A stretch of DNA of 46,500 nt from Ruminococcus sp. (GTDB lineage: Bacteria > Bacillota > Clostridia > Oscillospirales > Ruminococcaceae). The notes under the pieces were generated by a model that worked only from the letters and a program-made list of their open reading frames with translations, searched no databases and was not told where the DNA came from. The stretch is from the NCBI GenBank assembly GCA_017543335.1, contig JAFYGE010000028.1, positions 1 through 46,500 of the forward strand, read 5' to 3'. Position numbers and translations under genes: made by a program. This document shows positions 10,121-46,500 of the stretch, one piece after another; within the stretch, counting starts at the first letter, position 1, and each line of letters opens with the position of its first letter.

Positions 10121-10310
10121 ACAAATAAATATTCTGCCTTGTTCGGTGAAGTATAGTTCATTTGATCCAACACATTTTCTAAGGGAATTCAGCTCCGTTT
10201 GCGGACTGCAGACCTCCCCACGGGAAGAAGGGAGCGAGAAACATTCGGGCGTTTACCCACCTGCTGCGTGCGGGTTTCATTCACTATATGACGGCAAGGC
10301 GGATTTTTTT
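10121..10310 (+). ncRNA. ssrS: 6S (SsrS)-like RNA
   Basis: A promoter is followed by a sequence of about 190 nt that folds end to end. CTGCCTTG at 10134-10141 pairs with CAAGGCGG at 10295-10302, which is directly followed by seven T. Next, TATAGT at about 10152 pairs with ACTATA at about 10284. The 5' arm contains TTGTTCGGTG, matching the conserved TGTTCG of 6S RNAs. The middle has CTCCC/GGGAG and TCCG/CGGA hairpins. 6S RNA mimics an open promoter and binds the housekeeping RNA polymerase in stationary phase. I identify it from shape, size and the short motif, so another rod-like RNA is possible. Confidence 0.55.
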
Positions 10311-18276: not shown

Positions 18277-18306
18277 ACAAAAGCCGTTCCCGAACAGGAA
18301 CGGCTC
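18277..18306 (-). terminator. Terminator after the AspT-like transporter
   Basis: AGCCGTTCC (18282-18290) pairs with GGAACGGCT (18297-18305). On the minus strand it is followed by TTTTG. It marks the end of the large fumarate/Hdr transcript. Confidence 0.8.
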
Positions 18307-18311
18307 TGAGG

Positions 18312-19553
18312 CTAAAATAGCATTATCAAAAACTGAGATACGAGAACTACTGAGATAAGTGCTACAGGATATGTTGCGGCATATGCTGATGCAACATTTT
18401 CTGTTCCTGCTGTACTGATAAGTGTTCCCAGTGCCGGAGTTGATGTCATGCCTCCGGTAATTGAACCGAGGTTGTTGAGAAGGCTTAGTTTGAGGACGTA
18501 TTTCGCAAAAAGGAATCCAAGCACCATAGGTACTATTGTCATTATTATTCCATATACAAAATAAATAGCCTTGAAATACTCAGCAAACTTGGCTCCGCCG
18601 GACACACCTGCACCTATGAGGAAAAGCATAAGTCCAAGCTCTCTGAAAACCTTGAGAGTTGTGTCTTTTGGCATAATATTGACCTTTCCGATCTTTCCGA
18701 AATGTCCGAACAAAAGTGAAACAAGGAGACATCCTCCTGTTGTTGAAAGCGAGAAATTCTTAAACTTGAATGCTCCGACTATAATTCCGAGAGTTGCTGC
18801 AAGAGCAAATGGCATTATTCCGAAATCATCCATTTCTATAAGTTTGGATTCTTTCTTTTTAGCTTCAGCTTTCTTTGCGGTAACACCAAGCAATTCACGC
18901 TCTTTTGCCATGTTTGCTCCGAGTATTTTTGGAATGATCTGCACAAAGAGAACTACTCCGAGAACTCCGAAAATATAGGCTATACCATATCCTACTGATA
19001 CCGCTCCCTGATAATCCGGAGCTGCATCCTTTGCAGCTGAAAATCCAGGTGTACTTGTAAGAGCTCCTGAAAGGATTCCTGTCATAAGTGCTGTGAATTC
19101 ATCATTGCTGAGGTCGGTGAAGTTTCTGCCTACTGCAATACATCCGGCACAGGCAAGTCCGCCGCTGAAAATGATTATTACTGCAAGAACTACATAAGAT
19201 TTGAAATTCTTCTTGAAATTTCCAAAGAAATTTGGTCCGGCAATAAATCCTACTGCCGTTACAAAAAGTATAAGTCCGATATTATCGACTATTTTCAATG
19301 CTGAATCTACGAATGATACTTTGTCAACTATCGAACCTGTTCCGTCTTTTATGTTTGTCACAAGCTGTCCGGTGAGTTCTTCGTGGAAAATGCAGCCAAA
19401 GAGAAGTGCCACAAGGAAAACTCCTGCTGTTCCAAGAGATATACCCTTTATTGTGACCCTGCCGAGTATATATCCGAGAGCTGCAATTCCAAGCACTGAA
19501 AACATAAGGAATGTTATTCCTTTTACTGCCAGAATACCATTAAATAATTCCAT
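18312..19553 (-). CDS. AspT/YidE-type antiporter, likely dicarboxylate (succinate) exchanger
   Basis: 413 residues with about ten membrane helices in two homologous halves, the layout of the aspartate:alanine exchanger family. Each half has the Gly-rich repeat: LMTGILSGALTSTPGFSAA near residue 155 and LGSITGGMTSTPALGTLIS near 375. Family members usually have two TrkA-C domains between the halves; here there is only a charged loop of about 35 residues (KKAEAKKKESKLIEMD). It is the last gene of the fumarate reductase cluster, 64 bp after frdA, so succinate export or a dicarboxylate exchange is the best inference. The ribosome site is weak. Confidence 0.78.
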   Translation of the reverse strand: MELFNGILAVKGITFLMFSVLGIAALGYILGRVTIKGISLGTAGVFLVALLFGCIFHEELTGQLVTNIKDGTGSIVDKVSFVDSALKIVDNIGLILFVTAVGFIAGPNFFGNFKKNFKSYVVLAVIIIFSGGLACAGCIAVGRNFTDLSNDEFTALMTGILSGALTSTPGFSAAKDAAPDYQGAVSVGYGIAYIFGVLGVVLFVQIIPKILGANMAKERELLGVTAKKAEAKKKESKLIEMDDFGIMPFALAATLGIIVGAFKFKNFSLSTTGGCLLVSLLFGHFGKIGKVNIMPKDTTLKVFRELGLMLFLIGAGVSGGAKFAEYFKAIYFVYGIIMTIVPMVLGFLFAKYVLKLSLLNNLGSITGGMTSTPALGTLISTAGTENVASAYAATYPVALISVVLVSQFLIMLF

Positions 19554-19589
19554 TATTTATCACTCTAACTTTCTTTTTATTACGTAACA

Positions 19590-19611
19590 GCGGGACGCCG
19601 GAGCGTCCCGT
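19590..19611. repeat. Intercistronic hairpin between frdA and the transporter
   Basis: CGGGACG and CGTCCCG form a GC-rich stem around CCGGAG. There is no T-run on the minus strand, so it may stabilise or attenuate the transcript rather than end it. Confidence 0.5.
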
Positions 19612-19617
19612 TTATCA

Positions 19618-21222
19618 TTATTTTGACTTTCTTGCGTAATGTGGAAGCAGCATTGGTGATGCAGTTTCACCTGCTACGCCTGCTTCTGCGAGTTCTTTGT
19701 TGAACTTCTCGATATGGTCAAGAGTAAGTCCCTCCGGTGAAGCTGTATCCTTAGCCTTTGCAGCTGCATAGATACCGGCATTTCTTCCGAATACGATAAC
19801 ATCAAGCAATGAGTTGCCCATAAGTCGGTTTCTTCCGTGGATACCGCCGGCAACCTCACCGGCTGCGTAAAGATTCTCGACACCTGTTGCACAGTCATCA
19901 GTTATGTCAAGTCCGCCGTTCTGATAGTGAAGTGTCGGATAAACAAGGATAGGTTCTTTACGAATATCTATGCCGTATTTACCAAACATTCTCATCATTG
20001 CAGGGATACGCTTCTCGATAGTTCCTTCGCCGTGCTTTAACTCTATCATTGGAGTATCGAGCCATACTGCCTTACCGAGATTTGTCTCGACACCCTTATT
20101 TCTTTCTGTACACTCACGGATGATAGAAGCAGCAGTAACGTCACGGGTCTCAAGCGGATGCATGAAAACATCACCGTCGATATTTACAAGCTTTGCTCCG
20201 AGTGAACGAACCTTCTCAGTTACGAGGGCACCGAATATCTGCTCCGGATAGCCTGTTCCTGTCGGGTGATACTGAAGTGTATCAGCGTATAGAAGCTTTG
20301 CTCCGACTCTGTAGCCGAGGATAAGTCCGTCAGCTGTTGCACCGTAATGGTTTGAAGTCGGGAAGCCCTGATAGTGAAGACGTCCTGCACCGCCTGTTGC
20401 GATGATAACTGTCTTTGCCTTTGCAACGAGCAGCTCCTTAGTCTCCATATTCATAAGCACTGCACCGGCAGCCTTACCGTCTTTATCAAGGATTATCTCT
20501 ATCGCAGCAGTAAAGTCAACAACAGGTATACCTCTGTTGAGCACTTCGTCACGGAGAGTACGCATTATCTCTGCACCGGAATAGTCCTTTGCAGCGTGCA
20601 TTCTCTTGCGTGATGTACCGCCGCCGTGAGTTGTTACCATTGTTCCGTCTGCTTCCTTATCGAACTCAACTCCGAGCTTGTTGAGCCACTGGATAGCCTC
20701 AGGAGCTTTGGTTACGAGCTTCTTTACGAGTTCAGGCTTTGCAGCAAAATGTCCGCCGCCGAAAGCGTCGAGGAAGTGGATAGCAGGAGAATCATTTGGC
20801 TTATCAGCAGCCTGTATTCCGCCTTCTGCCATCATTGTATTTGCGTCACCGATACGAAGCTTTGTTACGATCATAGCCTTAACGCCTGCTTCGTCAGCTT
20901 CGATAGCTGCGGATGCACCTGCTCCGCCGCCGCCGATTATAAGGACATCCGTTTCATAGTCCGGAGTGCTGAGGTCAACATCGGATGCACTGATACGGCT
21001 TTTGCCCTGTAAAAGCTCTGCAAGCTGAGTAGGAACTTTATCGCCCTTATTTACGCCTGCTGAAAGTACTGTGAACTCATCCTGCTTGTAATCCGGATGG
21101 AAGTGAGCAAGAAGGTCATCCTTTTCCTCAGCAGTCATTCTTCTTGGTTCAAGAGGAGTATTTTCTGCTCTCTTAGCTGCAACTACCTTTGCAAGCTCGT
21201 TAAGTTTATCTATCTTATACAT
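19618..21222 (-). CDS. frdA: Fumarate reductase flavoprotein subunit, soluble type
   Basis: 534 residues. Residues 1-85 are a helical extension not usual in SdhA/FrdA. The FAD fold begins DVLIIGGGGAGASAA at about 92. Active-site elements for fumarate are present: LQYHPTGTGY, LVTEKVRSLG, ETRDVTAAS (catalytic Arg), HYQNGG and GIHGRNRLMGNSLLD. In membrane enzymes FAD is bound covalently to the His of SHT(V)xAxGG; here this reads ANTMMAEGG (Asn128), so FAD is presumably noncovalent, as in thiol:fumarate reductase and other soluble relatives. AAGGAGGAGCAGAA precedes the ATG. It pairs with the Fe-S subunit 12 bp upstream. The direction (fumarate reduction) is inferred from the anaerobic context. 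Confidence 0.9.
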   Translation of the reverse strand: MYKIDKLNELAKVVAAKRAENTPLEPRRMTAEEKDDLLAHFHPDYKQDEFTVLSAGVNKGDKVPTQLAELLQGKSRISASDVDLSTPDYETDVLIIGGGGAGASAAIEADEAGVKAMIVTKLRIGDANTMMAEGGIQAADKPNDSPAIHFLDAFGGGHFAAKPELVKKLVTKAPEAIQWLNKLGVEFDKEADGTMVTTHGGGTSRKRMHAAKDYSGAEIMRTLRDEVLNRGIPVVDFTAAIEIILDKDGKAAGAVLMNMETKELLVAKAKTVIIATGGAGRLHYQGFPTSNHYGATADGLILGYRVGAKLLYADTLQYHPTGTGYPEQIFGALVTEKVRSLGAKLVNIDGDVFMHPLETRDVTAASIIRECTERNKGVETNLGKAVWLDTPMIELKHGEGTIEKRIPAMMRMFGKYGIDIRKEPILVYPTLHYQNGGLDITDDCATGVENLYAAGEVAGGIHGRNRLMGNSLLDVIVFGRNAGIYAAAKAKDTASPEGLTLDHIEKFNKELAEAGVAGETASPMLLPHYARKSK

Positions 21223-21234
21223 TTCTGCTCCTCC

Positions 21235-21918
21235 TTACTTTTCTATCTCTCTGTTATTGTACATATCTTTGAGTTCCTGTACGCTGTCGACAGCTTTTGC
21301 CATAAGTTCAGCCATTTTCTCATCGTATATGCCTTCGTTGATCTCGTTTACACGGTCAGCAAGATGCTTGCACTCAGGAGCTATGTACTTACCGTTGAGT
21401 CTTCTTGCAAGCATAGCGACCTGTGGATGTGAGATTCCGGCAGGACAGCGTGATGAACATACTCCGCACATTACGCAGTCGAAGCTCTCCTCTGCACACT
21501 TGTCGTACTCGCCTCTCTGAGCGTATGCGATATACTGCATAACGTTGAGTTCCTGAGTACAAGCCTTAGTACAAGCGTTACATCCTACACAGGCATAGAT
21601 CTCAGGGTAGAGCTGCATCATTACCTGCTGATCCGGTTTGATCTCCTCTATGCTGTATATTTTCTTTTCAAGCGGGAAGAAAGGCAGAGTTGCAACGTAC
21701 ATATTTTCCTGTACCTCTGTCTGACAGGCAAGACATCCGTGGAGTTCAGACTCGCCTTTGATCCTGTATATTGTAGCACAGGCTCCGCAGAAACCGTTTC
21801 TGCATCCGCATCCTCTTACGAGTTCATAACCTGCGTATTCCATTGCTGTCATTATTGTAAGTCCTGCCGGCACCTGATACTTCTTACCGAACAGGTAAAC
21901 ATTAATCATATTATCCAT
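21235..21918 (-). CDS. frdB: Fumarate reductase iron-sulfur subunit
   Basis: 227 residues. The N-terminal ferredoxin domain has [2Fe-2S] ligands GCGCRNGFCGAC and CLAC. The C-terminal alpha-helical ferredoxin domain has two cluster motifs, CVGCNACTKACTQ and CVMCGVCSSRCP. Unlike thiol:fumarate reductase TfrB, it stops at about 227 residues and carries no CCG domain; the CCG protein HdrB is encoded separately in the same cluster. No frdC/frdD membrane anchor is present. I infer that electrons arrive from a soluble partner. AAGGAG precedes the ATG. Confidence 0.9.
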   Translation of the reverse strand: MDNMINVYLFGKKYQVPAGLTIMTAMEYAGYELVRGCGCRNGFCGACATIYRIKGESELHGCLACQTEVQENMYVATLPFFPLEKKIYSIEEIKPDQQVMMQLYPEIYACVGCNACTKACTQELNVMQYIAYAQRGEYDKCAEESFDCVMCGVCSSRCPAGISHPQVAMLARRLNGKYIAPECKHLADRVNEINEGIYDEKMAELMAKAVDSVQELKDMYNNREIEK

Positions 21919-21936
21919 GTTGTTTGCTCCTTATCA

Positions 21937-22767
21937 TCAATATTCATCCGGCAGCTCGTCAAGCTGATCGAAACGGAAAACAGGACCGTCCTTGCACACA
22001 TATTTATTTCCTATGTTGCATCTTCCGCATTTTCCGACGCCGCATTTCATACGAAGTTCCATAGTAGTATACACCTGAGTCTCTGTAAAGCCAAGCTCTT
22101 TAAGACCGGCAAGAGTAAACTTTATCATTATAGGCGGTCCGCAGACGAGAACAGTCTTGCTTGTAGAAGGATTAAGTTCTTTTACATAGTTAGGAACGAA
22201 TCCTACGTGACCGTCCCAGCCTTCCTGCGGATTATCGATAGTGAGGTTTACGTCTATACCCTTGTCGCTCATCCATTCATCGAGTATCTCCTTGTAATCA
22301 ACAAGGTCATCCTTTGAACGTGAGCCGTATACTATCTGAACATCGCCGTAGTTATCTCTGTTATCACGGACGTAATTTATAACCGAACGAAGCGGAGCAA
22401 GTCCGATACCTCCGGCAATAAAGAGAAGGTCTTTTCCCTTGAGCTCTGTTTCAACAGGGAACGCATTGCCGTATGGACCTCTGATAGTTATCATCTGTCC
22501 GACATCCATTGCGTGGAGCCAGTTTGTAAGGCATCCGCACTTCTTGATGCTGAATTCCATGAACTCTTTATTTGTAGGAGATGATGTTATCGAGAACATT
22601 GCCTCACCTACACCGGGGATAGAAAGCATTGCACACTGTCCTGGCATATGCTCAAAGACCTTGCCGCCCTCCGGAGCTTCAACTCGGAATGTTTTTACAT
22701 CGGGAGTGTCGATACGAATATCTGTAACGACGCCGATATATGGGATCAATGTATCGTTACTGTTCAT
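21937..22767 (-). CDS. floxA: FAD/NAD(P)-binding oxidoreductase (FloxA/AsrB-like)
   Basis: 276 residues from MNSNDTLIPYIGV. The ATG overlaps the stop of the upstream gene (TGATG), with TTGGAGG just ahead. The ferredoxin-NADP reductase-like fold has an FAD region (MFSITSSPTN), an NAD loop IAGGIGLAPLRSVI near residue 115 and the C-terminal [2Fe-2S] site CGVGKCGRCNIGNKYVC. It resembles AsrB, sulfhydrogenase gamma and FloxA. In the inferred complex it is the entry point for NADH. The symbol is by analogy with HdrABC-FloxABCD. Confidence 0.85.
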   Translation of the reverse strand: MNSNDTLIPYIGVVTDIRIDTPDVKTFRVEAPEGGKVFEHMPGQCAMLSIPGVGEAMFSITSSPTNKEFMEFSIKKCGCLTNWLHAMDVGQMITIRGPYGNAFPVETELKGKDLLFIAGGIGLAPLRSVINYVRDNRDNYGDVQIVYGSRSKDDLVDYKEILDEWMSDKGIDVNLTIDNPQEGWDGHVGFVPNYVKELNPSTSKTVLVCGPPIMIKFTLAGLKELGFTETQVYTTMELRMKCGVGKCGRCNIGNKYVCKDGPVFRFDQLDELPDEY

Positions 22768-23786
22768 CACTTTACCTCCAATGCTTTCATTACCTTGACT
22801 ATATTCATTGAGATAGGACACTTGGAAAGACATCTTCCGCATCCTACGCAGCCGAATTCTCCCTCATTATTCTTCGGGAAATATACGAGCTTATGCATGA
22901 ATCTCTGACGGAAACGTTCAAGCTGAGTAAGTCTTGGATTTCCGTGAGCCATTTTGGTAAAGTCTGAATACATACATGAATCCCAGCAGCGGAAACGCTT
23001 GATACCGTCGCCTGTGTTGAAGTCCTTGATGTCATAGCACTGACAGGTCGGGCATACAAAAGTGCAGGTACCGCAGCCGAGACAGCTTTCAGAAAGCTCT
23101 CCCCACTTATCGGAATTGAAGTATTCGTTCAGCTTATCTCCTCCGAAATTCTCTGTTGAGAGGTTAGCAAGAGGAAGCTTCGACATTATTGTTTTAGTCT
23201 TTTCTATAGCTTTGTCGAGCTCAGCGGTATCGCCGTCTTCAAGGAGTGAGCTGATAGAATCGATAAATTTCTGACCTTTGTCAGTATTAGCTTTGAAGTA
23301 AAGAAATGAACCGTCGCTCCAGCAAGCTGCGTCCCCTTCAGGAGCAGTAGGGTCGATGCCGAAAGTCTGACAGAAACAAGTCTCGGAAGGTCTTGTGCAA
23401 GCCATAGTAACAACTGTACCGTGGTCACGGCGATTTTTATAGAAGCTGTCGACCGGCTCTACAAGGTAGACTTTATCGAGTATCGTGAAGCTTCTTGCGT
23501 CGCAGGCACGAACTCCAAAGATAACGAAATCTTCAGATTCCTCTCTGATGTCCTTGACTTCTATCTTTTTTCCTTCCATCTTGAACTCTACAAGATTTTC
23601 AGTCTGTGGGAAGAAGAAGTCTTTTGCACTGCGGACTGTATTGAGCTTATCGCTCATTTTCATGCCGCTCTCGTACTTTTTGTACTCAGCTGCACCGTCT
23701 TTGCGGTCAGTAGGGATATAGAGAGCCTGCTGAGAATTTACAGCTTCAAACAATTCGTCGATTTTATCAAGTGATATTCTTAGCAT
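22767..23786 (-). CDS. floxB: 4Fe-4S dicluster electron-transfer subunit (FloxB/AsrA-like)
   Basis: 339 residues. The N-terminal two thirds is the AsrA/sulfhydrogenase-beta fold (DFVIFGVRACDARSFTILDK). The C-terminus has two ferredoxin motifs, CLGCGTCTFVCPTCQC and CVGCGRCLSKCP. It overlaps both neighbours by a base or so (TAATG start, TGATG end), a sign of tight translational coupling. The pairing with the AsrB-like protein matches NAD(P)H-linked electron modules. No catalytic sulfite site is present in the cluster. Confidence 0.83.
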   Translation of the reverse strand: MLRISLDKIDELFEAVNSQQALYIPTDRKDGAAEYKKYESGMKMSDKLNTVRSAKDFFFPQTENLVEFKMEGKKIEVKDIREESEDFVIFGVRACDARSFTILDKVYLVEPVDSFYKNRRDHGTVVTMACTRPSETCFCQTFGIDPTAPEGDAACWSDGSFLYFKANTDKGQKFIDSISSLLEDGDTAELDKAIEKTKTIMSKLPLANLSTENFGGDKLNEYFNSDKWGELSESCLGCGTCTFVCPTCQCYDIKDFNTGDGIKRFRCWDSCMYSDFTKMAHGNPRLTQLERFRQRFMHKLVYFPKNNEGEFGCVGCGRCLSKCPISMNIVKVMKALEVK

Positions 23787-24757
23787 TACTCAACACCCCT
23801 TTCATGAACGATACTTGCTTCGCAGTCATCAAAAGTATAGTCTGTAAGAGGAGCACGGGATGTTGTATCCTCGCCTGCCTGATACTCACCGTAAAGTGAA
23901 TTGATATCCTTGATGAACTTTCTGTTGAGGAGGTGGAGCGGTATATTCTGAGGGCAGACTCTTGAACACTCGCCGCAGTCGGTACATCTTCCGGCAACAT
24001 GGAAAGCACGGATGATGTGGAACATATTCTCCTCAAAGCTGTCTGAAGCAGCCTTATTCTCAACACCTGATTCAGGGTTATCGAATACGCACTTCTCACA
24101 AGTGCAGGCAGGACAGACATTGCGGCACGCATTGCAGCGGATACACTTTGAAAGCTGCTCTCTCCAGAAATTATAGCGTTCTTCAGCTGTCATATTTTCA
24201 AGCTGTTCTACCATATCGAAGCGGTTTGACTCAAGGACTTCTCCGTCCTCACCTATCAGTTCGTCATAAACTACGTGCTTTTTGCTCTTGCATGATGCAC
24301 ATTTATCGAGTATAGCCTCGCTGAACGGCATAGTCTCCTCGCCGTAGATAGTTTCTATTTTCAGAGTATAATTTTCATTCTTTACGCTGAGGATTCCGCT
24401 TATGCCCTTAGCCTTTATCTTTTCAATATCAAGCTTAGGACCGCCCGGTATTCCGACAACATAAACCTTTTCACGGTCAACTCTGTGCTCTTTAGTGAGC
24501 TGATTCAGACTGTATGTATCGCAAGGTTTAAGGAAAACAAGGACCTTTCCCTCTTTCTTAGTCTCTTTGACAAGATACTTTGAAACATTTGCAGATGTAA
24601 AATCATCATACACAAAATCAGCATCTATTTCTTCAGCTGATCCAAAAACTGCCGGGGTTATATCGTAAGCGAACTCTCCCCTTTTCCAGCCGATCACACG
24701 ATCTACAGTGCCGTCAGCCAGAAGCTGTTTTGCTTTATTTATTATTGCTTCCTGCAT
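23786..24757 (-). CDS. floxC: FrhB-like/4Fe-4S electron-transfer subunit (FloxC-like)
   Basis: 323 residues. The N-terminal FrhB-like domain includes LVFLKPCDTYSLNQLTKEH and DKCASCKSKKH. The later ferredoxin part has CIRCNACRNVCPACTCEKC and CTDCGECSRVCPQN. GGAGG is 9 nt before the ATG. It overlaps the MvhD-like gene by 16 nt. In the inferred complex it relays electrons between the NADH-oxidising module and the MvhD/HdrA core. Confidence 0.8.
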   Translation of the reverse strand: MQEAIINKAKQLLADGTVDRVIGWKRGEFAYDITPAVFGSAEEIDADFVYDDFTSANVSKYLVKETKKEGKVLVFLKPCDTYSLNQLTKEHRVDREKVYVVGIPGGPKLDIEKIKAKGISGILSVKNENYTLKIETIYGEETMPFSEAILDKCASCKSKKHVVYDELIGEDGEVLESNRFDMVEQLENMTAEERYNFWREQLSKCIRCNACRNVCPACTCEKCVFDNPESGVENKAASDSFEENMFHIIRAFHVAGRCTDCGECSRVCPQNIPLHLLNRKFIKDINSLYGEYQAGEDTTSRAPLTDYTFDDCEASIVHERGVE

Positions 24758-25188
24758 CGTAAATCCTCCAATCTGCGGTTAGGACCAAGTTTTTTTACTG
24801 CTTCTGTGAATTCATTCATAGTAGCTGCGAACTTAGCACCTTCTGCTGCTGATACCCATTCAACTCTTGTTCTGTCTCTTTCAATTCCGAGAAAATCAAG
24901 CATACTGAAAAGAAGGGTCATTCTTCTTCTTGTGAAATAGTTGCCTGAAGTATAGTGGCAGTCGCCGGGGTGACATCCGCAGAGGATAACTCCGTCTGCA
25001 CCTCTCTGGAAAGCACGCAGGATAAACATAGGGTTAACTCTGCATGAACAAGGAACTCTGATTATCTTTACATTAGTCGGGTAATTAAGTCTGTTTGTAC
25101 CGGAAAGATCTGCTCCTGCATAGGAACACCAGTTGCAGCAGAATGCAACTATCAGCGGCTCAAATTCTTTATTTTCATTCATTTGCAT
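24742..25188 (-). CDS. floxD: MvhD/FloxD-like hydrogenase iron-sulfur subunit
   Basis: 148 residues of the MvhD family, which passes electrons from an upstream dehydrogenase into HdrA. Cys motifs are FCCNWCSYAGAD, VPCSCRVNP and ILCGCHPGDCHY. The first ATG (25188) lies inside the end of hdrA with GGAGG 10 nt upstream; an ATG two codons later overlaps the hdrA stop as ATGA. Either start is possible. It is adjacent to hdrA, as in known Hdr clusters. Confidence 0.88.
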   Translation of the reverse strand: MQMNENKEFEPLIVAFCCNWCSYAGADLSGTNRLNYPTNVKIIRVPCSCRVNPMFILRAFQRGADGVILCGCHPGDCHYTSGNYFTRRRMTLLFSMLDFLGIERDRTRVEWVSAAEGAKFAATMNEFTEAVKKLGPNRRLEDLRCRKQ

Positions 25189-27170
25189 ATTGCATCTACC
25201 TCCGCCATTATCTGACTGTTAGAGAAGCCGTTGAGGTCCATAGCACCTGACGGACAAGCAACAGTACAAGCTCCGCATCCCTGACATACAGCCGGATTGA
25301 CACTTGCAACTCTGCGTATTGCAGTTGTTCTGTCAGGCATTCTGAACTCTTTATCGATATATGTGATCGCACCGTATGGACAAACCTTTTCGCATGATGA
25401 ACAGCCGTTGCACATAAGCTCATTTGAATGAGCAACACACGGATTGCAGGTAATACTGTTCTTGCAGAGAAGTCCGATAGCTTTTGCTGCGGCTGCACTT
25501 GCCTGTGCTACGGTCTCCGGAATGTCCTTTGGACCCTGACAAGCACCGGAAAGGAATATTCCTGCTGTTGCACTCTCTACAGGACGAAGCTTAGGATGTG
25601 CTTCAGTGAAGAAGTCGTTTGTATCCATCTGTGTCGTGAGCATTGTTGCAAGCGGACGTGCAGTTTTGTCCGGTTCAATAGCAGCTGCAAGCACTACCAT
25701 ATCAGCGTCGATATGAAGCTGTTCATTTGAGAGAAGGTCAGAAGCCTGAACTGCAAGTTTTCCGTCGCTCTTAGGAGTTACCTTGCCGACCATGCCCTTT
25801 ATGTAATGTACGTTATACTGCTCTACAGCTCTGCGGTAGAACTCGTCAAAGTTCTTGCCTGGAGTACGAACGTCGATATAGAATACATATACTTCTGTAT
25901 CCGGATATTTCTCACGGATAAGCATTGCGTGCTTAGCTGTATACATACAGCATATCTTTGAGCAATAAGGCTTACCCTTGCTGTCGTCGCATCTTGAACC
26001 AACGCACTGCACAAATACTATCTTGTGCGGATGTGTCTTATCGGAAGGACGAAGAAGTGTACCGCCGTTAGGTCCGGCAGCATTCATAAGTCTTTCAAGC
26101 TCAAGTGATGTAACAACATCAGGTGACTGGTTATATGCGAATTCATCGTATTTATCGAGCTTTATAGGATTGAAACCGGTTGCAACTACGATAGCACCGT
26201 ATTTTTCTTCAATGAATCTGTCCTGCTGTTTATAGTCGATAGCTCCGACTGAACATACCTTTGAGCAAACTCCGCATTTGCCGTTTTTAAGCATCATACA
26301 GTAGTTAGGGTCAATAGTTGCGACCTTTGGTACTGCCTGAGCAAAAGGTATATATACAGCTGTTCTGTTATCAAGTCCCATATTGAACTCATTAGGAACT
26401 TTCTTCATAGGACATTTTTCTGTACAAAGTCCGCATCCGGTACATTTTGTTTCGTCAACAAAACGAGCTTTCTTTTTTATTGTAACAGTGAAGTTACCTA
26501 CGAATCCCTTTACATCTGTTACTTCGCTGAATGAGTGGATATGTATTTTCTCATTCTGTGAAGCTTCAACCATTTTTGGTGTAAGGATACAAGCAGCACA
26601 GTCAAGAGTTGGGAAAGTCTTGTCTATCTGAGCCATTTTACCGCCGATAGTAGGCTGTTTTTCTACGATGTCAACATCGAATCCTGCTTCTGCAATATCA
26701 AGAGCAGTCTGGATACCTGCGATACCTCCGCCGATAACAAGAGCTCTCTTGGCTACAGGACTTTCGCCTGCTATAAGAGGTGCATTGAGATGTACCTTAG
26801 CTATGGCAGCTCTGCCGAGGATTATTGCTTTTTCAGAGGCTGTAGCTATATCCTTGTGTATCCATGAACACTGTTCACGGATATTTGCTATCTCTACGAG
26901 ATATGGGTTAAGTCCGGCAGCAGCTGCTGCTTTTCTGAAAGTGTTCTCATGCATTCTTGGTGAGCATGAACATATTACAACACCGGTAAGGTTGTGTTCT
27001 TTTATAGCGTTCTTTACGAGATTCTGTCCCGATTCAGAACACATATACTGATAGTCCTGGGAGATCACTACTCCCGGCTCGTGACCGAGTGCTTCAGCAA
27101 CAGCCTTAACGTCAACTGTTGCAGCTATATTCGTTCCGCAATGACAGACAAATACACCTATTCTCTGCAT
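25179..27170 (-). CDS. hdrA: HdrA-like flavin-based bifurcation subunit
   Basis: 663 residues. The N-terminal domain begins GVFVCHCGTNIAATVD, followed by a Rossmann FAD domain (VIGGGIAGIQTALDIAEAG near 145 and GGKMAQIDKTFPTLDCA). There is an inserted ferredoxin (CTGCGLCTEKCP), then CGVCSKVCSVGAIDY and two C-terminal [4Fe-4S] sites, CNGCSSCEKVCP and CQGCGACTVACP. In methanogens and in Hdr-Flox complexes, HdrA's FAD splits electron pairs between ferredoxin and HdrB. Full length with all motifs visible. GGAGGAG precedes the ATG. Confidence 0.93.
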   Translation of the reverse strand: MQRIGVFVCHCGTNIAATVDVKAVAEALGHEPGVVISQDYQYMCSESGQNLVKNAIKEHNLTGVVICSCSPRMHENTFRKAAAAAGLNPYLVEIANIREQCSWIHKDIATASEKAIILGRAAIAKVHLNAPLIAGESPVAKRALVIGGGIAGIQTALDIAEAGFDVDIVEKQPTIGGKMAQIDKTFPTLDCAACILTPKMVEASQNEKIHIHSFSEVTDVKGFVGNFTVTIKKKARFVDETKCTGCGLCTEKCPMKKVPNEFNMGLDNRTAVYIPFAQAVPKVATIDPNYCMMLKNGKCGVCSKVCSVGAIDYKQQDRFIEEKYGAIVVATGFNPIKLDKYDEFAYNQSPDVVTSLELERLMNAAGPNGGTLLRPSDKTHPHKIVFVQCVGSRCDDSKGKPYCSKICCMYTAKHAMLIREKYPDTEVYVFYIDVRTPGKNFDEFYRRAVEQYNVHYIKGMVGKVTPKSDGKLAVQASDLLSNEQLHIDADMVVLAAAIEPDKTARPLATMLTTQMDTNDFFTEAHPKLRPVESATAGIFLSGACQGPKDIPETVAQASAAAAKAIGLLCKNSITCNPCVAHSNELMCNGCSSCEKVCPYGAITYIDKEFRMPDRTTAIRRVASVNPAVCQGCGACTVACPSGAMDLNGFSNSQIMAEVDAICK

Positions 27171-27185
27171 AGTAATATCTCCTCC

Positions 27186-27569
27186 TTACTTTACGTATTT
27201 TCTGAATGCAGTTACGATAGCCTGCTGCGGCAGGTCATCATCGAGCATTTCCGGAAGCTGAGCCGGTGACATATGGTTGTTGCCCTGCTGACGTACTGCT
27301 GCAAGTCTTACTGCTTCTACGACCTTTGCAGGCTCAACATTTCTTGGGCATCTCTCCACACAAGCAAAGCAGGTAAGGCATTTATAAAGTGACTTTGAGT
27401 TCAGAAGCGGCTCTATATCGCCTTTCTCTACCATATATACAAACTGATGCGGATGATATTCCATTTCATCGTAGGAGGGACAGGTGCCGGAGCACTTTCC
27501 GCAACGCATACATTTAAGAACATTAACTCCGCTGGCACGAAGGACTTGTTCCTTGAGGTTCTTATTCAT
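27186..27569 (-). CDS. hdrC: HdrC-like ferredoxin subunit
   Basis: 127 residues from MNKNLKEQVLRASGVNVLKC. Two [4Fe-4S] motifs, CMRCGKCSGTCPSY and CLTCFACVERCPRN. It bridges HdrA and HdrB. The ATG lies inside the last codons of hdrB (8-nt overlap) with GGAGG just upstream, which settles the start over a longer frame to 27602. It is 15 bp before hdrA. Confidence 0.92.
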   Translation of the reverse strand: MNKNLKEQVLRASGVNVLKCMRCGKCSGTCPSYDEMEYHPHQFVYMVEKGDIEPLLNSKSLYKCLTCFACVERCPRNVEPAKVVEAVRLAAVRQQGNNHMSPAQLPEMLDDDLPQQAIVTAFRKYVK

Positions 27570-28359
27570 TGTTACCCTCCTTGAGTCCGAGAGCCTCAGC
27601 AAGAAGCTCTGTGAAGTAATATACCGGAAGCTCTGAATCTGAATTCTTCTTCAGATTGTAGAGACACAATGGACAGGCGGTGATGATCATATCAGCCCCC
27701 TGATCTTCAGCTGAAGTCATAACTGCGTTGCTTCTCTTTGATGCCTGAGCCTTGTCCTCCATAGTGATATATCCGCCGCAGCACTCATTTCTCTGGGCGT
27801 ATATTACAGGAGTTCCGCCGATAGCTTTGATGAAATCCTCCATTATTGTAGGATTTTCAGGATCATCCATTGCCAGTGCCTTTGATGGACGGAGAAGAAG
27901 ACATCCGTAGTATGCTGCTATCTTTTTGCCCTTGAATGGGTTTACTACCTTTTGTGCAAGGTTATCGAAACCAACTACATCCCTGAGCATTTCAAGATAG
28001 TGATACACAGTTGTCTCGCCGTTATAAGGCTCTGCGAGCTTCAGATAATTATTTATCTTTGAAGCCATATCCTCATCATTGATAATGTCGTAATTAGTCT
28101 GCTTTATCACGTTGTGACAAGCGGAACAGACTGTGATAAGCGGTCTGTCGAGCTCTTTAGCAGCGTTGAGAGTTCTTACTGCTGAGAGCTTAGTTGCGAT
28201 CTCATCCTTAGCTGTTGTATACGCTCCGCCGCAGCACTGCCAGTCAGCAGGCTCTTCAAGAGCGATACCAAGAGCCTCAGCGGAAGATCTTGCATAAGTA
28301 TCAAGATCTTTAGCCTTGGTCCTGAGCGTACAGCCTGGATAGTATGTGAAAGTATTCAT
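27562..28359 (-). CDS. hdrB: HdrB-like subunit with two CCG domains
   Basis: 265 residues from MNTFTYYPGCTL, with AAAGGAAG before the ATG at 28359. Two complete cysteine-rich CCG sets are visible: YYPGC / WQCCGGAY / CSACH and YYGC / NECCGGY / CPLC, each able to bind a noncubane [4Fe-4S] cluster. In methanogens this subunit reduces CoM-CoB heterodisulfide, which a Firmicute lacks. Here the natural acceptor is inferred to be the FrdAB fumarate reductase encoded in the same transcript. Confidence 0.9.
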   Translation of the reverse strand: MNTFTYYPGCTLRTKAKDLDTYARSSAEALGIALEEPADWQCCGGAYTTAKDEIATKLSAVRTLNAAKELDRPLITVCSACHNVIKQTNYDIINDEDMASKINNYLKLAEPYNGETTVYHYLEMLRDVVGFDNLAQKVVNPFKGKKIAAYYGCLLLRPSKALAMDDPENPTIMEDFIKAIGGTPVIYAQRNECCGGYITMEDKAQASKRSNAVMTSAEDQGADMIITACPLCLYNLKKNSDSELPVYYFTELLAEALGLKEGNNE

Positions 28360-28378
28360 ATGTACGCTTCCTTTCGTG

Positions 28379-28429
28379 TACGGCAACACCGCACAAATAG
28401 CCGTAAGGCGGCGATCATGCGGCATCGCC
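28379..28429 (-). promoter_or_regulatory. Two hairpins in the fumC-hdrB spacer
   Basis: GGCGAT/ATCGCC (28410-28429) and TACGGC/GCCGTA (28379-28405) form successive stems in the 77-bp gap. Neither has a T-run. They may set the ratio of fumarase to Hdr subunits by RNA processing or partial attenuation. Confidence 0.5.
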
Positions 28430-28436
28430 TTATATA

Positions 28437-29813
28437 TTATACCATTTCCTCTGGGTGGAATACCTCGTCGAATTTTTCAGCTGTGAGGAAGCCAAGCTCC
28501 ACACAAGCTTCTTTAAGGGAAATATTGTCCTTAAAAGCTTTCTTTGCTGTTTTTGCAGCATTCTCGTATCCAATGTAAGGATTGAGAGCTGTTACAAGCA
28601 TGAGTGAATTATGCAGGTTATGGTGCATTTTTTCTTTGTTTGCCTTTATTCCTACAGCACAGTTCTTGTTGAAGCTTGTGATAGACTCAGCAAGAAGTCT
28701 TGCGGACTGCAAGAAATTATACGCACAAACCGGCATAAAGACATTAAGTTCAAAGTTGCCCTGTGATGCGGCCATGCCTACGGTCACATCGTTTCCCATT
28801 ACCTGCACAGCGACCATTGTTACCTGTTCGCACTGTGTCGGATTTACTTTTCCCGGCATGATAGATGAACCCGGCTCGTTTTCCGGAATGAATATCTCAC
28901 CAAGACCGTCTCTCGGACCAGATGCAAGCCATCTTACGTCGTTGGCAATCTTCATCATATCAGCTGCAAGAGCTTTAAGAGCACCATGAGCAAATACTAT
29001 CTCGTCTTTGGATGTAAGAGAATGGAATTTGTTTGGTGAAGTTATAAACTTCAAGCCGGTAAGCTCACTTACAGCCTCGGCAGCCTTCTCTGCAAATCCC
29101 TTCGGAGCGTTAAGTCCGGTACCGACTGCTGTTCCGCCGAGAGCGAGTTCTTTAAGCTCCTCACAAGCTGAAAGGAGCATCTTCTTATCCTTTTCGAGAG
29201 AAGCTCTCCAGCCGCTTATCTCCTGAGAGAATTTTATCGGAGTAGCGTCCTGAAGATGAGTACGTCCGCTTTTTACGATGCCCTCATTTTCTGCTTCAAG
29301 CTTTTTGAATGTGCCGATAAGAGTGTCGACAGCAGGAACGACCTTATTCTCTATGGCAAGAACAGCTGCGATATGCATTGCTGTCGGAAATGTATCGTTT
29401 GAGGACTGACTCATATTAATGTCATCATTTGGATGAAGCAGTTTTTTTCCTGCGAGTTCATTGCCTCTGTTGGCTATAACTTCGTTAGCATTCATGTTGG
29501 ACTGCGTACCGCTTCCGGTCTGCCAGACAACAAGCGGAAAATGCTCGTTAAGAGAACCGCTGATAACTTCGTCACAAGCCTGAGATATAACAGAAAGCTT
29601 TTCATCGGTCATTCTTTCCGGCTTCAGTGAATGGTTAGCGATTGCGGCAGCTTTTTTCAGAATACCAAAAGCGTAAGTTATCTCCCTCGGCATTGTTTCA
29701 ATACCCACACCGATAAGAAAATTTTCATGACTGCGTTCTGTCTGAGCAGCCCAGTACTTATCAGCCGGCACTTTCACCTCACCCATTGAATCATGTTCAA
29801 TACGGTAATCCAT
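28437..29813 (-). CDS. fumC: Class II fumarase
   Basis: It interconverts malate and fumarate. The 458-residue protein has the family signature GSSIMPGKVNP near residue 318, GSGTQSNMNANEVIANR near 100 and SGRTHLQDATP near 185. AGAGG lies 8 nt before the ATG at 29813; an ATG two codons earlier is also possible. It is the first gene of the fumarate/Hdr cluster and supplies the substrate of the reductase. Oxygen-stable class II in an anaerobe is common in this group. Confidence 0.95.
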   Translation of the reverse strand: MDYRIEHDSMGEVKVPADKYWAAQTERSHENFLIGVGIETMPREITYAFGILKKAAAIANHSLKPERMTDEKLSVISQACDEVISGSLNEHFPLVVWQTGSGTQSNMNANEVIANRGNELAGKKLLHPNDDINMSQSSNDTFPTAMHIAAVLAIENKVVPAVDTLIGTFKKLEAENEGIVKSGRTHLQDATPIKFSQEISGWRASLEKDKKMLLSACEELKELALGGTAVGTGLNAPKGFAEKAAEAVSELTGLKFITSPNKFHSLTSKDEIVFAHGALKALAADMMKIANDVRWLASGPRDGLGEIFIPENEPGSSIMPGKVNPTQCEQVTMVAVQVMGNDVTVGMAASQGNFELNVFMPVCAYNFLQSARLLAESITSFNKNCAVGIKANKEKMHHNLHNSLMLVTALNPYIGYENAAKTAKKAFKDNISLKEACVELGFLTAEKFDEVFHPEEMV

Positions 29814-29885
29814 ATACATATCCTCTCCCTGGTCTTAAATCTAACGGAACCGCAGATACGGTCACCGAACTCTTTTTATAATAAT

Positions 29886-30341: not shown

Positions 30342-30995
30342 CTATTCGTTTTCAGCTTCTTTTTCTTCCATAGAATTCAGACCATACGAAAGTGTCGTCA
30401 AGCTGTCACCGAGATGAACATTTTCAACTGTTATACCCTTTCTGCCGGCTCTCATGTCATAATGAGTGAAGTTCCAGAATGCTTTTATACCATAGCTTAT
30501 AAGCACATCGACCATTTTTTCCGCAGCAGCAGTCGGTACACAGAGTATCGCCGCAACAGGTTTCCTGTCAGTGCAGAAATGTTCAAGTTCGTCGATCCCC
30601 TGAACAGATATTTCACCGATCTTCTTGCCGATCGCACTTGCATTTGTATCAAATGCACCGATCAGATCAAAGCCTTTGTTATGAAAATCTATATGAGAAG
30701 CTATGGCTGTACCGAGATTTCCTGCACCAAGAAGTATCATCGGAGTCAGCTCGTCAAGTCCGAGTATATGTCCTATTTCTCCACGGAGGTCAGTGACATT
30801 ATATCCATATCCCTGCTGTCCGAATTCGCCGAAACAATTGAAATCCTGACGTATCTGAGATGCCGTAAGTCCCATTTTTTCAGAAAGCTCTCTTGAAGAA
30901 ATGCGTACATATCCATTAGCTTCAAGCTCGCCGAGAAAACGGTAATATCTTGGCAAACGTCTAATTACTGAATTTGATATTGCGTTTTTTGACAT
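30342..30995 (-). CDS. rex: Redox-sensing transcriptional repressor Rex
   Basis: 217 residues. The N-terminal winged helix is at residues 8-75 (SNSVIRRLPRYYRFLGEL, then SSRELSEKMGLTASQIRQDF). A Rossmann NAD(H) domain carries LLGAGNLGTAIASHIDF near residue 92. Rex leaves DNA when NADH is high and so switches on fermentation pathways. AAAGAGG precedes the ATG. It is the last gene of the acn-icd run and lies directly upstream of the NADH-linked fumarate cluster, so it is the likely regulator of that cluster. Confidence 0.96.
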   Translation of the reverse strand: MSKNAISNSVIRRLPRYYRFLGELEANGYVRISSRELSEKMGLTASQIRQDFNCFGEFGQQGYGYNVTDLRGEIGHILGLDELTPMILLGAGNLGTAIASHIDFHNKGFDLIGAFDTNASAIGKKIGEISVQGIDELEHFCTDRKPVAAILCVPTAAAEKMVDVLISYGIKAFWNFTHYDMRAGRKGITVENVHLGDSLTTLSYGLNSMEEKEAENE

Positions 30996-33023: not shown

Positions 33024-34961
33024 TCACTTCATTGACTCTCTTGTGAAGTCGAGAAGTCCGCCTGCGAGCATAATATCCTTTGTACGTCCGGAAAGTTCGC
33101 AGAGTACAGGGATCTCCTTGCCATTTGTCTTGTTAACGACTGTAAGCTCAGACTTTCCTTCTTCTACTGCCTTTCTTACATCAGCAAGAACGAGCTCATC
33201 ACCCTGTGCGATAGAATCATAATCAGCTTCGTTTACAAATGTAAGCGGAAGGATTCCGGCATTTATGAGGTTAGCTCTGTGGATTCTTGCGAATGACTTT
33301 ACGAGAACAGCCTTTACTCCGAGGTAAAGCGGAGCAAGTGCAGCGTGCTCACGGGATGAACCCTGACCGTAGTTAGAACCGCCTACGATGATGCTCTTGC
33401 CGAGTGACTTAGCTCTCTCTGGGAAGCTCTCGTCGCAAACAGCGAAGCAGTGCTGTGAGATCTTCGGAATATTTGAACGGAGCGGAAGTATCTTAGCTCC
33501 GGCAGGCATGATGTGGTCAGTAGTGATATTGTCGCCGACCTTGAGTGATACAGGAGCATCAATAGTCTCAAGAAGCGGTGAAGTTTCAGGATATGGCTTG
33601 ATGTTCGGACCACGAAGTATCTCTACGCTGTCCATTTCTTCCTCTGAAGCAGGAGGAACTATCATATTATCGTTTATTGTGAATATCTCAGGGAGTTTGA
33701 ACTCTGGCATATCTCCGAGCTCTCTTGGGTCTGTGAGGTAGCCTGTAAGAGCTGATACAGCAGCCATTTCAGGTGATACAAGGTAGATCTGACCGTCCTT
33801 TGTTCCGGAACGTCCCTCAAAGTTTCTGTTGAAGGTTCTGAGTGAGATACCGCCGGAGTTAGGTGACTGTCCCATACCGATACATGGACCGCACGCACTT
33901 TCAAGTATACGTGCACCAGCTTCGATAAGATCGGAAAGTGCACCGTTCTGTGCGAGCATATTGAGAACCTGCTTTGAACCGGGAGCAATTGCAAGTGATA
34001 CACTTGGGTCAACAGTCTTGCCCTTTAAGATATGTGCAACTTTGAGCATATCAAGAAGTGAAGAGTTTGTGCATGAACCGATACAAACCTGATCGACTTT
34101 AAGTCTGCCGATCTCTTCAACGCTCTTTACGTTATCAGGAGAATGCGGACAGGCAGCAAGCGGAACGAGTTTGCTGAGGTCTATAGTAAGCTCTTCATCA
34201 TATACAGCATCAGCATCAGCAGAAAGAGGAGTCCATACTTCTTCACGCTACTGAGCTTTGAGGAACTGCTTTGTGATCTCGTCTGATGGGAAAATAGATG
34301 TTGTAGCACCAAGCTCTGCACCCATGTTTGTGATAGTAGCTCTCTCAGGAACTGAAAGTGTCTTTACGCCTTCGCCGCAGTACTCGATTACCTTGCCAAC
34401 TCCGCCCTTTACTGAAAGTCTGCGGAGAACTTCAAGGATAACGTCCTTTGCAGCTACCCATGGCTGAAGCTTGCCTGTAAGTTCAACCTTAACAACCTTA
34501 GGGCAAGTTATGTAGTAAGCACCGCCGCCCATTGCAACAGCAACGTCAAGTCCGCCGGCACCTATAGCGATCATACCGATTCCGCCGCCTGTAGGAGTAT
34601 GGCTGTCTGAACCGATGAGAGTCTTTCCAGGGATACCGAATCTCTCAAGGTGTACCTGATGGCAGATACCGTTGCCCGGACGTGAGAAATAGATACCGTG
34701 CTTCTTTGCAACGCTTCCGATGAAGCGGTGGTCATCAGCATTTTCAAAACCGTTCTGAAGTGTATTATGGTCAATATAAGCTACTGAGCGTTCTGTTTTG
34801 ACTCTTGGCACGCCGATAGCCTCGAATTCGAGGTAAGCCATTGTACCTGTAGCGTCCTGAGTAAGTGTCTGATCGATCTTTATACCGATCTCCTGACCCT
34901 TGACGTACTCGCCGTCAACAAGATGTGCTCTGAGAATTTTTTCTGTTAAAGTTAAACCCAT
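33024..34961 (-). pseudogene. acn: Aconitase (Aquifex-type) split by an in-frame TAG
   Basis: Read through one codon, the frame gives a 645-residue aconitase converting citrate to isocitrate. The N-part (from MGLTLTEKILRAHLVDGEYV; AAGGAATTG before the ATG at 34961) has IGSDSHTPTGGGIGM and runs to TKQFLKAQ. The TAG is at 34248-34250. The same frame then continues without any indel: REEVWTPLSADAD, the cluster ligand region VCIGSCTNSSLLDMLK, CGPCIGMGQSP and the swivel domain with GGSNYGQGSSREHAAL. All cluster Cys lie after the stop, so the 240-residue product alone would be inactive. Possible explanations are a recent nonsense mutation, a sequence error, or read-through. Confidence 0.8.
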
Positions 34962-34999
34962 AGAGATCAATTCCTTTCATTACATAAGAATACATTTTA

Positions 35000-45122: not shown

Positions 45123-45199
45123 CGAGGTGTGGCTCAGTTTGGTAGAGTACTACGTTCGGGACGTAGGGGCCGCAGGTTCGAATCCTGTCACCTCGACCA
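45123..45199 (+). tRNA. tRNA-Pro(CGG)
   Basis: A full cloverleaf. The acceptor CGAGGTG pairs with CACCTCG, then A and encoded CCA. The anticodon stem CTACG/CGTAG holds the loop TTCGGGA with anticodon CGG (codon CCG). The T arm is GCAGG-TTCGAAT-CCTGT. It has its own promoter and terminator. Confidence 0.95.
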
Positions 45200-45381: not shown

Positions 45382-46500
45382 TCATATCGCTTTACATATT
45401 TTCTGCACAGATTCGTTCCAAGGCAGGAGCTCTTCCAGAATATCCGGATTTGTCAGGAATGTCATACTTGGCAGTACAGTGAGAAGCAGTTCAAAATACT
45501 TGAAAACATCAAGGCGATTTGCCTTGGCAGTTTCTACGATACTGTAGACATCAGCACTTGCTTTAGCACCTTTGGGAGTATCACTGAAAAGCCAGTTTTT
45601 TCTGCCAACTGTAAAAGGTCTGATAGCATTTTCGGCTATGTTATTTGAGATAGCACAATTTCCATTCTCAAAATAATTACCAAGATATTCTCTGCGCTTG
45701 AAAGCGTAATCAAACGCCTTCCCAAGCTGCGTCTTTGAAAGTACTGTCGGATATATTTTTTCAGCCCATGACCAGAAAGCCTCAAACACTTCTTTTTCCT
45801 GTGTCAGACGCTTATTGTATCTTTCTTCACTTGTCAGGCTGTCAAACTCTGCTTCTATTGAAAACAGCTTGTCACAGAAGTCTCTTCCTGTCTTTGCTAT
45901 ACTGTTTTCACTGTCCACGACAATGGCTTCGTGGAACTTGCGTCTCAGATGCGCCCAGCAATTGCAGTGTGTGACCTTTGTGAGTTTGTTGTAGCCTGCA
46001 TATCCGTCTATATGAAGGTATCCGCTGAAGTCTCCAAGTAACTTCTTAGCAACATCTCCTGATCTTGATTTATTGTAATCATAGATCACTATCTGTCTTT
46101 CGGAATGCTTGCCTGTACGGTATACCCACATATACTGCTTACTGTTGGCGGAAACATCTTTTTCCCTGAGAACTTTGACGTATGTTTCATCGCAGTGCAG
46201 AGCATCCTCCGTCAGCATTTCAGTTTTTAATCTGGCAATAAATCTGCTGAAATAGTCTTCACTGCATCGTATCACCCAGTTCGCCATTGTTGTTCTGCTG
46301 AGTGAATATCCCAGCCGTTCCCAGTCCTTTTCCTGACGATACAGCGGCACTGCATTCACATACTTCTGATATATCACCCATGATACTGTGGACGCTGATG
46401 CAAGCGAATGCGGAAGTACGGGTGCAGGCACAAGTCCATGAAGAAATACGGGCATATTCTTTTTCTCGCATTTCTTGCAGCTGTATGTATTGCTGTAATA
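45382..46500 (-). mobile_element. tnpC: IS66-family transposase TnpC, N-terminus beyond window
   Basis: The DDE transposase domain is nearly complete: QKYVNAVPLYRQEKDWERLG, then LHCDETYVKVLREK, GYLHIDGYAGYNKL, CWAHLRRKFHEA and the C-terminal SNNIAENAIRPFTVGRKNWL with VYSIVETAKANRLDVFKYF. The frame stays open to the right edge, where CKKCEKKN shows part of the zinc-finger domain that precedes the catalytic domain in this family. TnpA and TnpB partners would lie outside. It is probably intact, cut only by the window. Confidence 0.93.

Follow-up and report, generated by a model that had tools for sequence, protein, structure and literature searches.

A 'succinate operon' encoding a fumarate hydratase, Flx-Hdr, a fumarate reductase and a presumed transporter has been described in Pseudoclostridium thermosuccinogenes (Koendjbiharie et al., 2020, PMC7282089); that paper assumes ferredoxin-coupled fumarate reduction 'as proposed previously', its reference list giving a 2019 preprint (10.20944/preprints201912.0288.v1). 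For tubeworm symbionts it has been suggested that Flx-Hdr forms a direct complex with the products of tfrAB and korABCD (PMC6315080), and the Flx-Hdr/tfrAB model is repeated in PMC11636981. Here we describe an operon of this type in a rumen Ruminococcus sp. (GCA_017543335.1), on a stretch of 46,500 nucleotides (the window) that is the entire contig JAFYGE010000028.1 of a draft genome of 2.45 Mb, 85.9% complete. A sequence-only reading of the window knew of no characterised complex of this sort. We too found no report of a purified complex of this kind in the open PMC literature, but the idea itself is not new, and because published work has already proposed the coupling both for this type of operon and for a related cluster, the window operon is a further member of a proposed kind, not the discovery of the kind.

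That genes for fumarate hydratase, a complete Hdr-Flx module, FrdAB and a transporter form one run is confirmed; the interpretation placed on it, with NADH oxidation driving fumarate reduction on one arm and ferredoxin reduction on the other, is plausible and in part supported. Judging from the genes alone, we consider it likely that the enzymes of the operon reduce fumarate with NADH and couple this step to the reduction of ferredoxin at HdrA. What we add is how widely the genes are linked, the electron-input modules that appear interchangeable, the presence of two subfamilies of Rex and the cofactor signatures of FrdA and FrdB. Succinate feeds propionate formation in the rumen. It is a product of Ruminococcus flavefaciens (PMC7174568), and should its formation from fumarate also supply Rnf with reduced ferredoxin, current assumptions on how much ATP these fermenters gain and on their hydrogen balance would need revision.

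Gene order and its conservation

Read on the minus strand from position 29819 down to 18312, the genes are fumC, hdrB, hdrC, hdrA, mvhD, flxC, flxB, flxA, frdB, frdA and that of an AspT-type transporter (Table 1), which is probably a dicarboxylate (succinate) exporter or exchanger. The table of open reading frames (ORFs) and the domain searches bear out the gene set, strand and order given by the sequence-only reading, and all seven FlxABCD-HdrABC subunits are encoded together. With the starts that we chose, neighbouring genes from hdrB to frdA either overlap by 1-16 bp or lie 12-18 bp apart, in agreement with the short gaps and overlaps described earlier; the fumC-hdrB and frdA-transporter gaps are 77 bp and 64 bp. 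HdrB probably starts at 28359 and not at 28425, because 112 of the 122 distinct rows of its alignment have no residue at the initial 15 positions of the longer ORF. The earlier phrase 'fused by operon' holds in so far as the genes adjoin, but this is adjacency and no protein fusion. Likewise, the statement that hdrB-frdA contains no internal terminator is fair but unproven: three weak terminator-like matches (5-6 pairs) lie on the minus strand, and the region is richer in such matches than its shuffles (24 vs 11.7). A 10-pair hairpin in the frdA-transporter gap was scored on the plus strand.

The linkage of these genes is not chance. Among named genomes, the relatives of FrdA that were read are the best 80 of at least 559 stretches, i.e. 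close relatives; 18 of the 80 loci were dropped for having less than 7.3 kb upstream, all 62 with at least that much have the nine core genes (hdrB to frdA) in the order of the window, FumC lies upstream in 60 of these 62, and the transporter lies downstream in 47 of the 61 named loci with at least 2.5 kb there. R. flavefaciens is included, its strain FD-1 (L038, FrdA at 92%) having the same operon. Within the family, FrdA (E≤1e-100) occurs in 18 of 148 genomes; contig ends cut five of the 17 loci besides that of the window, and the nine genes stand in order in all 12 others (three of which are also among the 62 named loci; five locus pairs are identical between the named set and the other sets).

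At the level of the class, 54 of 391 genomes, scattered over many families, have FrdA (E≤1e-80) and 54 have HdrA (E≤1e-120), 52 of them having both. The gene order is the same in 19 of 20 class loci, with frdB-frdA-hdrB-hdrC-hdrA-mvhD-flxC-flxB-flxA in the other (G413). The co-occurrence of FrdA and HdrA has four exceptions: two loci at a contig end (G179 and G505), one in which the contig ends inside flxC with flx and frd still adjacent (G218), and one genome whose HdrA, at 48% identity, belongs to another kind of cluster that has no frd (G169). It is the order kept in all complete named and family loci, together with the co-occurrence of FrdA and HdrA in the class, that makes the linkage more than chance. 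The gene-order comparison that the sequence-only reading had proposed thus came out in its favour, and in neither family nor class do most close relatives carry frd without hdr or flx. Within the genus FrdA is present in 104 of 120 genomes (63 of the 65 of good quality), and these frequencies in genus and class make the question a broad one.

Table 1. Features of the operon and its immediate surroundings in the window
Feature	Coordinates	Strand	Support and remarks
fumC, class II fumarate hydratase	28437..29819 (start 29813 or 29819)	(-)	TIGR00979 705.7 bits, cut-off 664.75
hdrB, two CCG domains	27562..28359 (ORF extends to 28425)	(-)	PF02754; 8rvv_B E 1.7e-35
hdrC, two 4Fe-4S motifs	27186..27569 (ORF extends to 27602)	(-)	TIGR03290, under cut-off
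hdrA, flavin and Fe-S subunit, candidate bifurcation site	25179..27170	(-)	NF040770 799 bits, under cut-off; 5odc_A E 2.4e-208
mvhD / flxD, FlpD-type Fe-S subunit	24742..25188	(-)	PF02662 1.8e-55
flxC-like Fe-S subunit, 323 aa	23786..24757	(-)	4Fe-4S domains
flxB-like (AsrA/ShyB-like) Fe-S subunit, 339 aa	22767..23786	(-)	NF040829 4.8e-51, TIGR02910 4.4e-38, both under cut-off
flxA-like (AsrB-like) FAD/NAD(P)H-binding subunit, DHODB-type Fe-S domain	21937..22767 (ORF extends to 22842)	(-)	PF00175, PF00970, PF10418; TIGR02911 3e-59, under cut-off
frdB, 227 aa, 2Fe-2S domain and two CxxCxxCxxxC motifs	21235..21918	(-)	domain matches
frdA, fumarate reductase-type flavoprotein	19618..21222	(-)	PF00890 1.2e-71; best NCBIfam match TfrA 343.5 bits, cut-off 718
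AspT/YidE-type (Asp-Al_Ex) transporter	18312..19553	(-)	PF06826 1.9e-57; TIGR01625 over cut-off
terminator-like hairpin, 12-pair stem, 3' of transporter	18280..18307	(-)	strongest minus-strand match
rex, NADH/NAD+-sensing repressor, beside operon	30342..30995	(-)	NF003990 274.9 bits, cut-off 233
candidate Rex operator TTGTGAATTTTATATCAA	29945..29962	(-)	about 130 bp upstream of fumC; three mismatches to consensus

Proposed electron path and cofactor signatures

The operon would serve as the reductive succinate branch of a R. flavefaciens-like fermenter. Fumarate would come from malate via FumC, and the FAD of FlxA would take hydride from NADH, the electrons passing through the Fe-S clusters of FlxB and FlxC and then MvhD to the HdrA flavin. 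HdrA would split each pair: one electron would go to ferredoxin, against the potential gradient, and the other would run down the gradient by way of HdrC and the HdrB noncubane clusters to FrdB and FrdA, which would reduce fumarate to succinate. Succinate would leave by the transporter, and the reduced ferredoxin would feed Rnf, which would build an ion gradient. The predicted balance is 2 NADH + fumarate + oxidised ferredoxin -> 2 NAD+ + succinate + two-electron-reduced ferredoxin. Using standard potentials (E0') of +33 mV for fumarate and -320 mV for NADH (PMC5861303), and of -500 mV for ferredoxin (PMC9304861), we calculate a gain of about 68 kJ per mol on the fumarate arm and a cost of about 35 on the ferredoxin arm, a sum of about -33 kJ per mol, which becomes about -18 kJ per mol with NADH at -280 mV. 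The sequences show the genes, their order, the conserved ligands, the linkage and the presence of Rnf genes; in this scheme the formation of a complex, the coupling to ferredoxin, the direct path from HdrB to FrdB, the direction and the exported substrate are what we infer from sequence.

The Hdr-Flx subunits keep their cofactor ligands. HdrA (663 aa) aligns over residues 3-660 with the solved HdrA 5odc, of which it retains the flavin domain and 4Fe-4S ligands; its K413, invariant in 121 of 121 rows, aligns with K409 of the solved protein, a residue with a role near the flavin. Both CCG sets of HdrB are intact, as had been read from the sequence, with all ten ligand cysteines present in the window protein and in 122 of 122 distinct rows. 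Eight cysteines of HdrC (123 rows) and 14 of the 15 cysteines of the FlxC-like subunit (135 rows) are each conserved in at least 95% of rows. The HdrA, HdrC and FlxC alignments were restricted to sequences reaching 80-90% of the length of the window protein.

In FrdA, which has a conserved N-terminal extension of about 88 aa, the fumarate-site residues H319, R339, H432 and R466 (positions from alignment with 3p4p_A) are present in 144 of 144 distinct rows. The same alignment was used to place the covalent-FAD histidine of E. coli FrdA, and here the window protein has N128; asparagine stands at this position in 143 of the 144 distinct rows and histidine in one (L091). E. coli variants without the covalent FAD bond are reported to keep fumarate reduction and to lose succinate oxidation or perform it poorly. 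The replacement of this histidine suggests that FrdA is a one-way reductase. All 138 distinct FrdB rows carry four cysteines in the second cluster motif, at the usual 3Fe-4S site, where quinone-linked enzymes carry a 3Fe-4S signature; domain searches and alignment of the 227-aa FrdB found neither that signature nor a CCG domain.

Two other identities for FrdA were considered and rejected. For a membrane-anchored quinol:fumarate reductase, the covalent-FAD histidine and the 3Fe-4S signature are lacking, no anchor subunit was recognised among ORFs of at least 80 aa in 18312-29819, and menA, the only menaquinone gene sought, was not found in the 85.9%-complete genome. For an L-aspartate oxidase, there is a separate NadB-like protein, and FrdA has its own FrdB as well as the N-terminal extension. 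PF00890 matches eight places in this incomplete genome (FrdA, the NadB-like protein, HdrA, one of 45 bits and four weaker), the only other strong one being the 508-aa protein, beside a nadC-like gene, that is read as NadB. The genome also has a full Rnf gene set, rnfC being identified by model and the five other subunits alongside by reading of frames.

Rex senses NADH/NAD+, and since its gene adjoins the operon, NADH appears to be the relevant currency. A rex gene adjoins the operon in 36 of 114 distinct loci, always on the same strand, and in 28 of the 70 loci with at least 700 bp on both sides. Twenty-one of these neighbours share 70-86% with the window Rex. The other fifteen share just 27-34%; ten of them are found downstream of the operon, and the three that were checked fit NF003994, unlike the window Rex, for which NF003990 is best. 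Which of the two Rex subfamilies adjoins the operon, and on which side, thus varies among genera. That a Rex operator precedes fumC is no more than a suggestion, the candidate sequence (Table 1) having similar counterparts in other Ruminococcus loci. A best operator match at p≤0.05 occurs in 13 of 69 upstream regions (ten from Ruminococcus, with one duplicated locus counted as two), and the median p is 0.49 against simple base shuffles, a weak control.

Other partners of FrdAB and rival explanations

Beyond the class, a phylum sample of 398 genomes has FrdA (E≤1e-80) in 39, including the window's own, and 31 loci were read from 30 of the 38 others, of which 30 are informative and one (L185) is cut off. 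Five loci have full HdrABC, MvhD and FlxABC beside frdBA in two other orders, frdBA-hdrBCA-mvhD-flxCBA in four and hdrCBA-mvhD-flxCBA-frdBA in one. At five more (L162, L163, L164, L174 and L187) frdBA stands with hdrB, hdrA or an HdrA-like part, a large flavoprotein, mvhD and a distant FlxC-like protein, hdrC being present in four of them. The large flavoprotein is 'NfnL-like' by our own label; the two examples searched with Pfam, of 1069 and 1488 aa, have pyridine-nucleotide and Fe-S domains. A different electron input is possible at these loci. Four loci (L175, L177, L183 and L184) pair FrdBA with HdrCB only, HdrA lying elsewhere in the genome. At two loci the neighbours of frdBA are membrane FMN-binding and Fe-S proteins, joined at one locus by multihaem cytochrome-like proteins (by eye). 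No Hdr gene is within reach at the remaining fourteen; L181 and L182, among the loci without Hdr, have less than 3.3 kb upstream. Three of the four HdrCB-only loci also carry class I fumarase-like frames (by eye or size), and two loci without Hdr (L158, L173) carry class I fumarase-like and malic enzyme-like genes, read by eye.

HdrA was sought in 21 genomes lacking an adjacent full Hdr module (15 from loci without Hdr, the four with HdrCB only, and G821 and G662, whose FrdA locus was unread) and was found in 17. In six of the 17, from two families, the remote HdrA belongs to an hdrBCA-mvhD-flx operon that resembles the one in the window but is without frdA (one cut before flxA), FrdAB being on a different contig. 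The HdrA genes of three genomes (G779, G612, G566) have one in-frame TGA each, possibly selenocysteine. On a tree of 68 FrdA sequences, each 480 aa or longer (quick method, midpoint root), five changes are required to explain Hdr-Flx linkage, and strongly supported branches force four of these; rows without HdrA are interspersed among linked rows. Five changes, with the other gene orders on separate branches, mean that the pairing has been reshuffled or established anew on more than one occasion, and this speaks for function.

A wider picture is conceivable, and we offer it tentatively. Combining an N-terminal extension with a non-covalent flavin and an all-4Fe-4S wire, this FrdAB may be a general plug-in fumarate reductase that docks via HdrB/HdrC on interchangeable inputs (the NADH-linked Flx, an HdrA/NfnL-like flavoprotein, or HdrCB alone) or is fed by membrane FMN/cytochrome proteins. 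HdrB would then be a plain relay, not a disulfide reductase, and succinate formation in many gut and rumen Clostridia would be one-way, soluble, energy-conserving and under Rex (NADH) control.

The interpretation of the window operon itself in terms of NADH and ferredoxin is favoured by the class linkage, the Rnf genes, the failure to find menA, the lone NadB-like rival among PF00890 proteins, and Rex. In P. thermosuccinogenes the equivalent operon is described as up about fourfold when CO2 was limiting, although the rise was not significant for all subunits. With H2, succinate nearly disappeared, and in the authors' view this fits ferredoxin coupling (PMC7282089). Several observations weigh on the other side. 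A redox potential lowered with Na2S acted opposite to H2 in the same organism, a result that the authors call confusing (PMC7282089); in vent symbionts, tfrAB is reported not to follow the expression pattern of the Hdr-Flx operon (PMC11636981); and for pyruvate fermentation to succinate in D. alaskensis, Hdr/flox-1 and Rnf were unimportant in one fitness study and important in an earlier one (PMC4215793). The scan of the window for Rex operators came out at chance (6 matches vs 4.1 expected; 26 of 100 shuffles with as many; p 0.075 for the region upstream of fumC). Co-transcription, itself presumed, would not establish a complex. Finally, 16 of the 30 informative FrdAB loci in other classes have no adjacent Hdr gene, and four of the 21 genomes searched have no HdrA (E≤1e-50) while having FrdA relatives of 62-66% identity, so that FrdAB can use other donors and has no intrinsic need for Hdr.

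The rival that survives best, though we judge it unlikely, is a shuttle and no single complex: Hdr-Flx would bifurcate from NADH to ferredoxin and a soluble disulfide (DsrC-like, thioredoxin-like or a small thiol), and FrdAB would use the dithiol in the manner of thiol:fumarate reductase. It draws on the ten CCG cysteines kept by HdrB in all 122 distinct rows, on the matches of FrdA and FrdB to the TfrA and TfrB models (FrdA scoring under the TfrA equivalog cut-off, Table 1), on the proposal that Hdr/flox uses DsrC in Desulfovibrio (PMC4215793), and on the six genomes in which the hdrBCA-mvhD-flx operon and FrdAB are on different contigs. However, FrdB is without the CCG domain of TfrB, and the four loci that pair FrdBA with HdrCB alone suggest contact, although the same four genomes do have HdrA elsewhere. 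No disulfide carrier was recognised among operon ORFs of at least 80 aa, a genome search for DsrC or similar not having been made.

A plain soluble NADH:fumarate reductase with no ferredoxin coupling seems to us improbable. Electron flow from NADH to fumarate is strongly downhill alone (on the potentials of PMC5861303), and the Rex linkage makes NADH relevant while being silent on ferredoxin, but HdrA, which keeps the Fe-S ligands and the K413 position of the solved protein, would be superfluous if the flow were uncoupled. Reverse operation in vivo, with succinate and reduced ferredoxin confurcating to NADH, is the least credible of all, since, although bifurcating enzymes are reversible in principle, 143 of 144 distinct FrdA rows have asparagine at the covalent-FAD position, flavoproteins without the covalent bond are reported to reduce fumarate but to oxidise succinate poorly, and R. 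flavefaciens makes succinate (PMC7174568). As regards the preferred reading, ferredoxin-coupled fumarate reduction by NADH, the system offers a clean test of whether Hdr complexes drive a non-disulfide acceptor, the operon being available in R. flavefaciens FD-1.

Neighbouring genes and comparison with known systems

Upstream of the operon, on the same strand, lie rex, an NADP-isocitrate dehydrogenase gene and a two-part aconitase, whose frames (33024-34049 and 34248-34970, minus strand) are about 200 bp apart, a frameshift or assembly error being possible. Aconitase, isocitrate dehydrogenase, rex and fumC together make up a tricarboxylic acid (TCA)-type cluster. Elsewhere in the window there is a 6S RNA at 10128-10309 on the plus strand (63.3 bits, gathering score 46.4), a 953-aa secreted protein at 40712-43573 on the plus strand that by eye resembles a family 9 cellulase with a C-terminal dockerin-like part, and an IS66-like transposase frame (by eye) at 45382-46455 on the minus strand, near a tRNA-Pro gene at 45123-45199.

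FlxABCD-HdrABC of Desulfovibrio was reportedly described by Ramos in 2015. It is the same seven-subunit NADH/Hdr module as in the window and is present in Bilophila too, but its high-potential partner is thought to be DsrC and the cluster as described has no frd (PMC12125255). In Moorella, MetVF-MvhD-HdrABC likewise sets Hdr-MvhD beside a substrate-specific reductase, with bifurcation proposed, but the account given is of methylene-tetrahydrofolate reduction, not of fumarate reduction (PMC7325909).

For the reductase itself there is TfrAB of methanogens, TfrA being the best NCBIfam match of FrdA, and parts of the TfrB model matching FrdB and HdrB; it differs in that FrdB and HdrB are separate chains in the window and the presumed donor is NADH, not the CoM/CoB thiols. 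HdrB finds its own best NCBIfam match in SdhE, the CCG subunit of 8-methylmenaquinol:fumarate reductase (147.4 bits, cut-off 500). There, as here, a CCG protein partners FrdAB, but the SdhE enzyme is a membrane and quinone system whereas the window operon has neither a quinone nor a membrane part.

The reductive TCA cluster of tubeworm symbionts and Thioflavicoccus, as described, has tfrAB within flxABCD-hdrABC, like the window (PMC6315080; PMC11636981), but with korABCD interspersed and in the service of carbon fixation, not fermentation. The succinate operon of P. thermosuccinogenes, a thermophile, has by its described gene content the same gene set as the operon of the window (PMC7282089).

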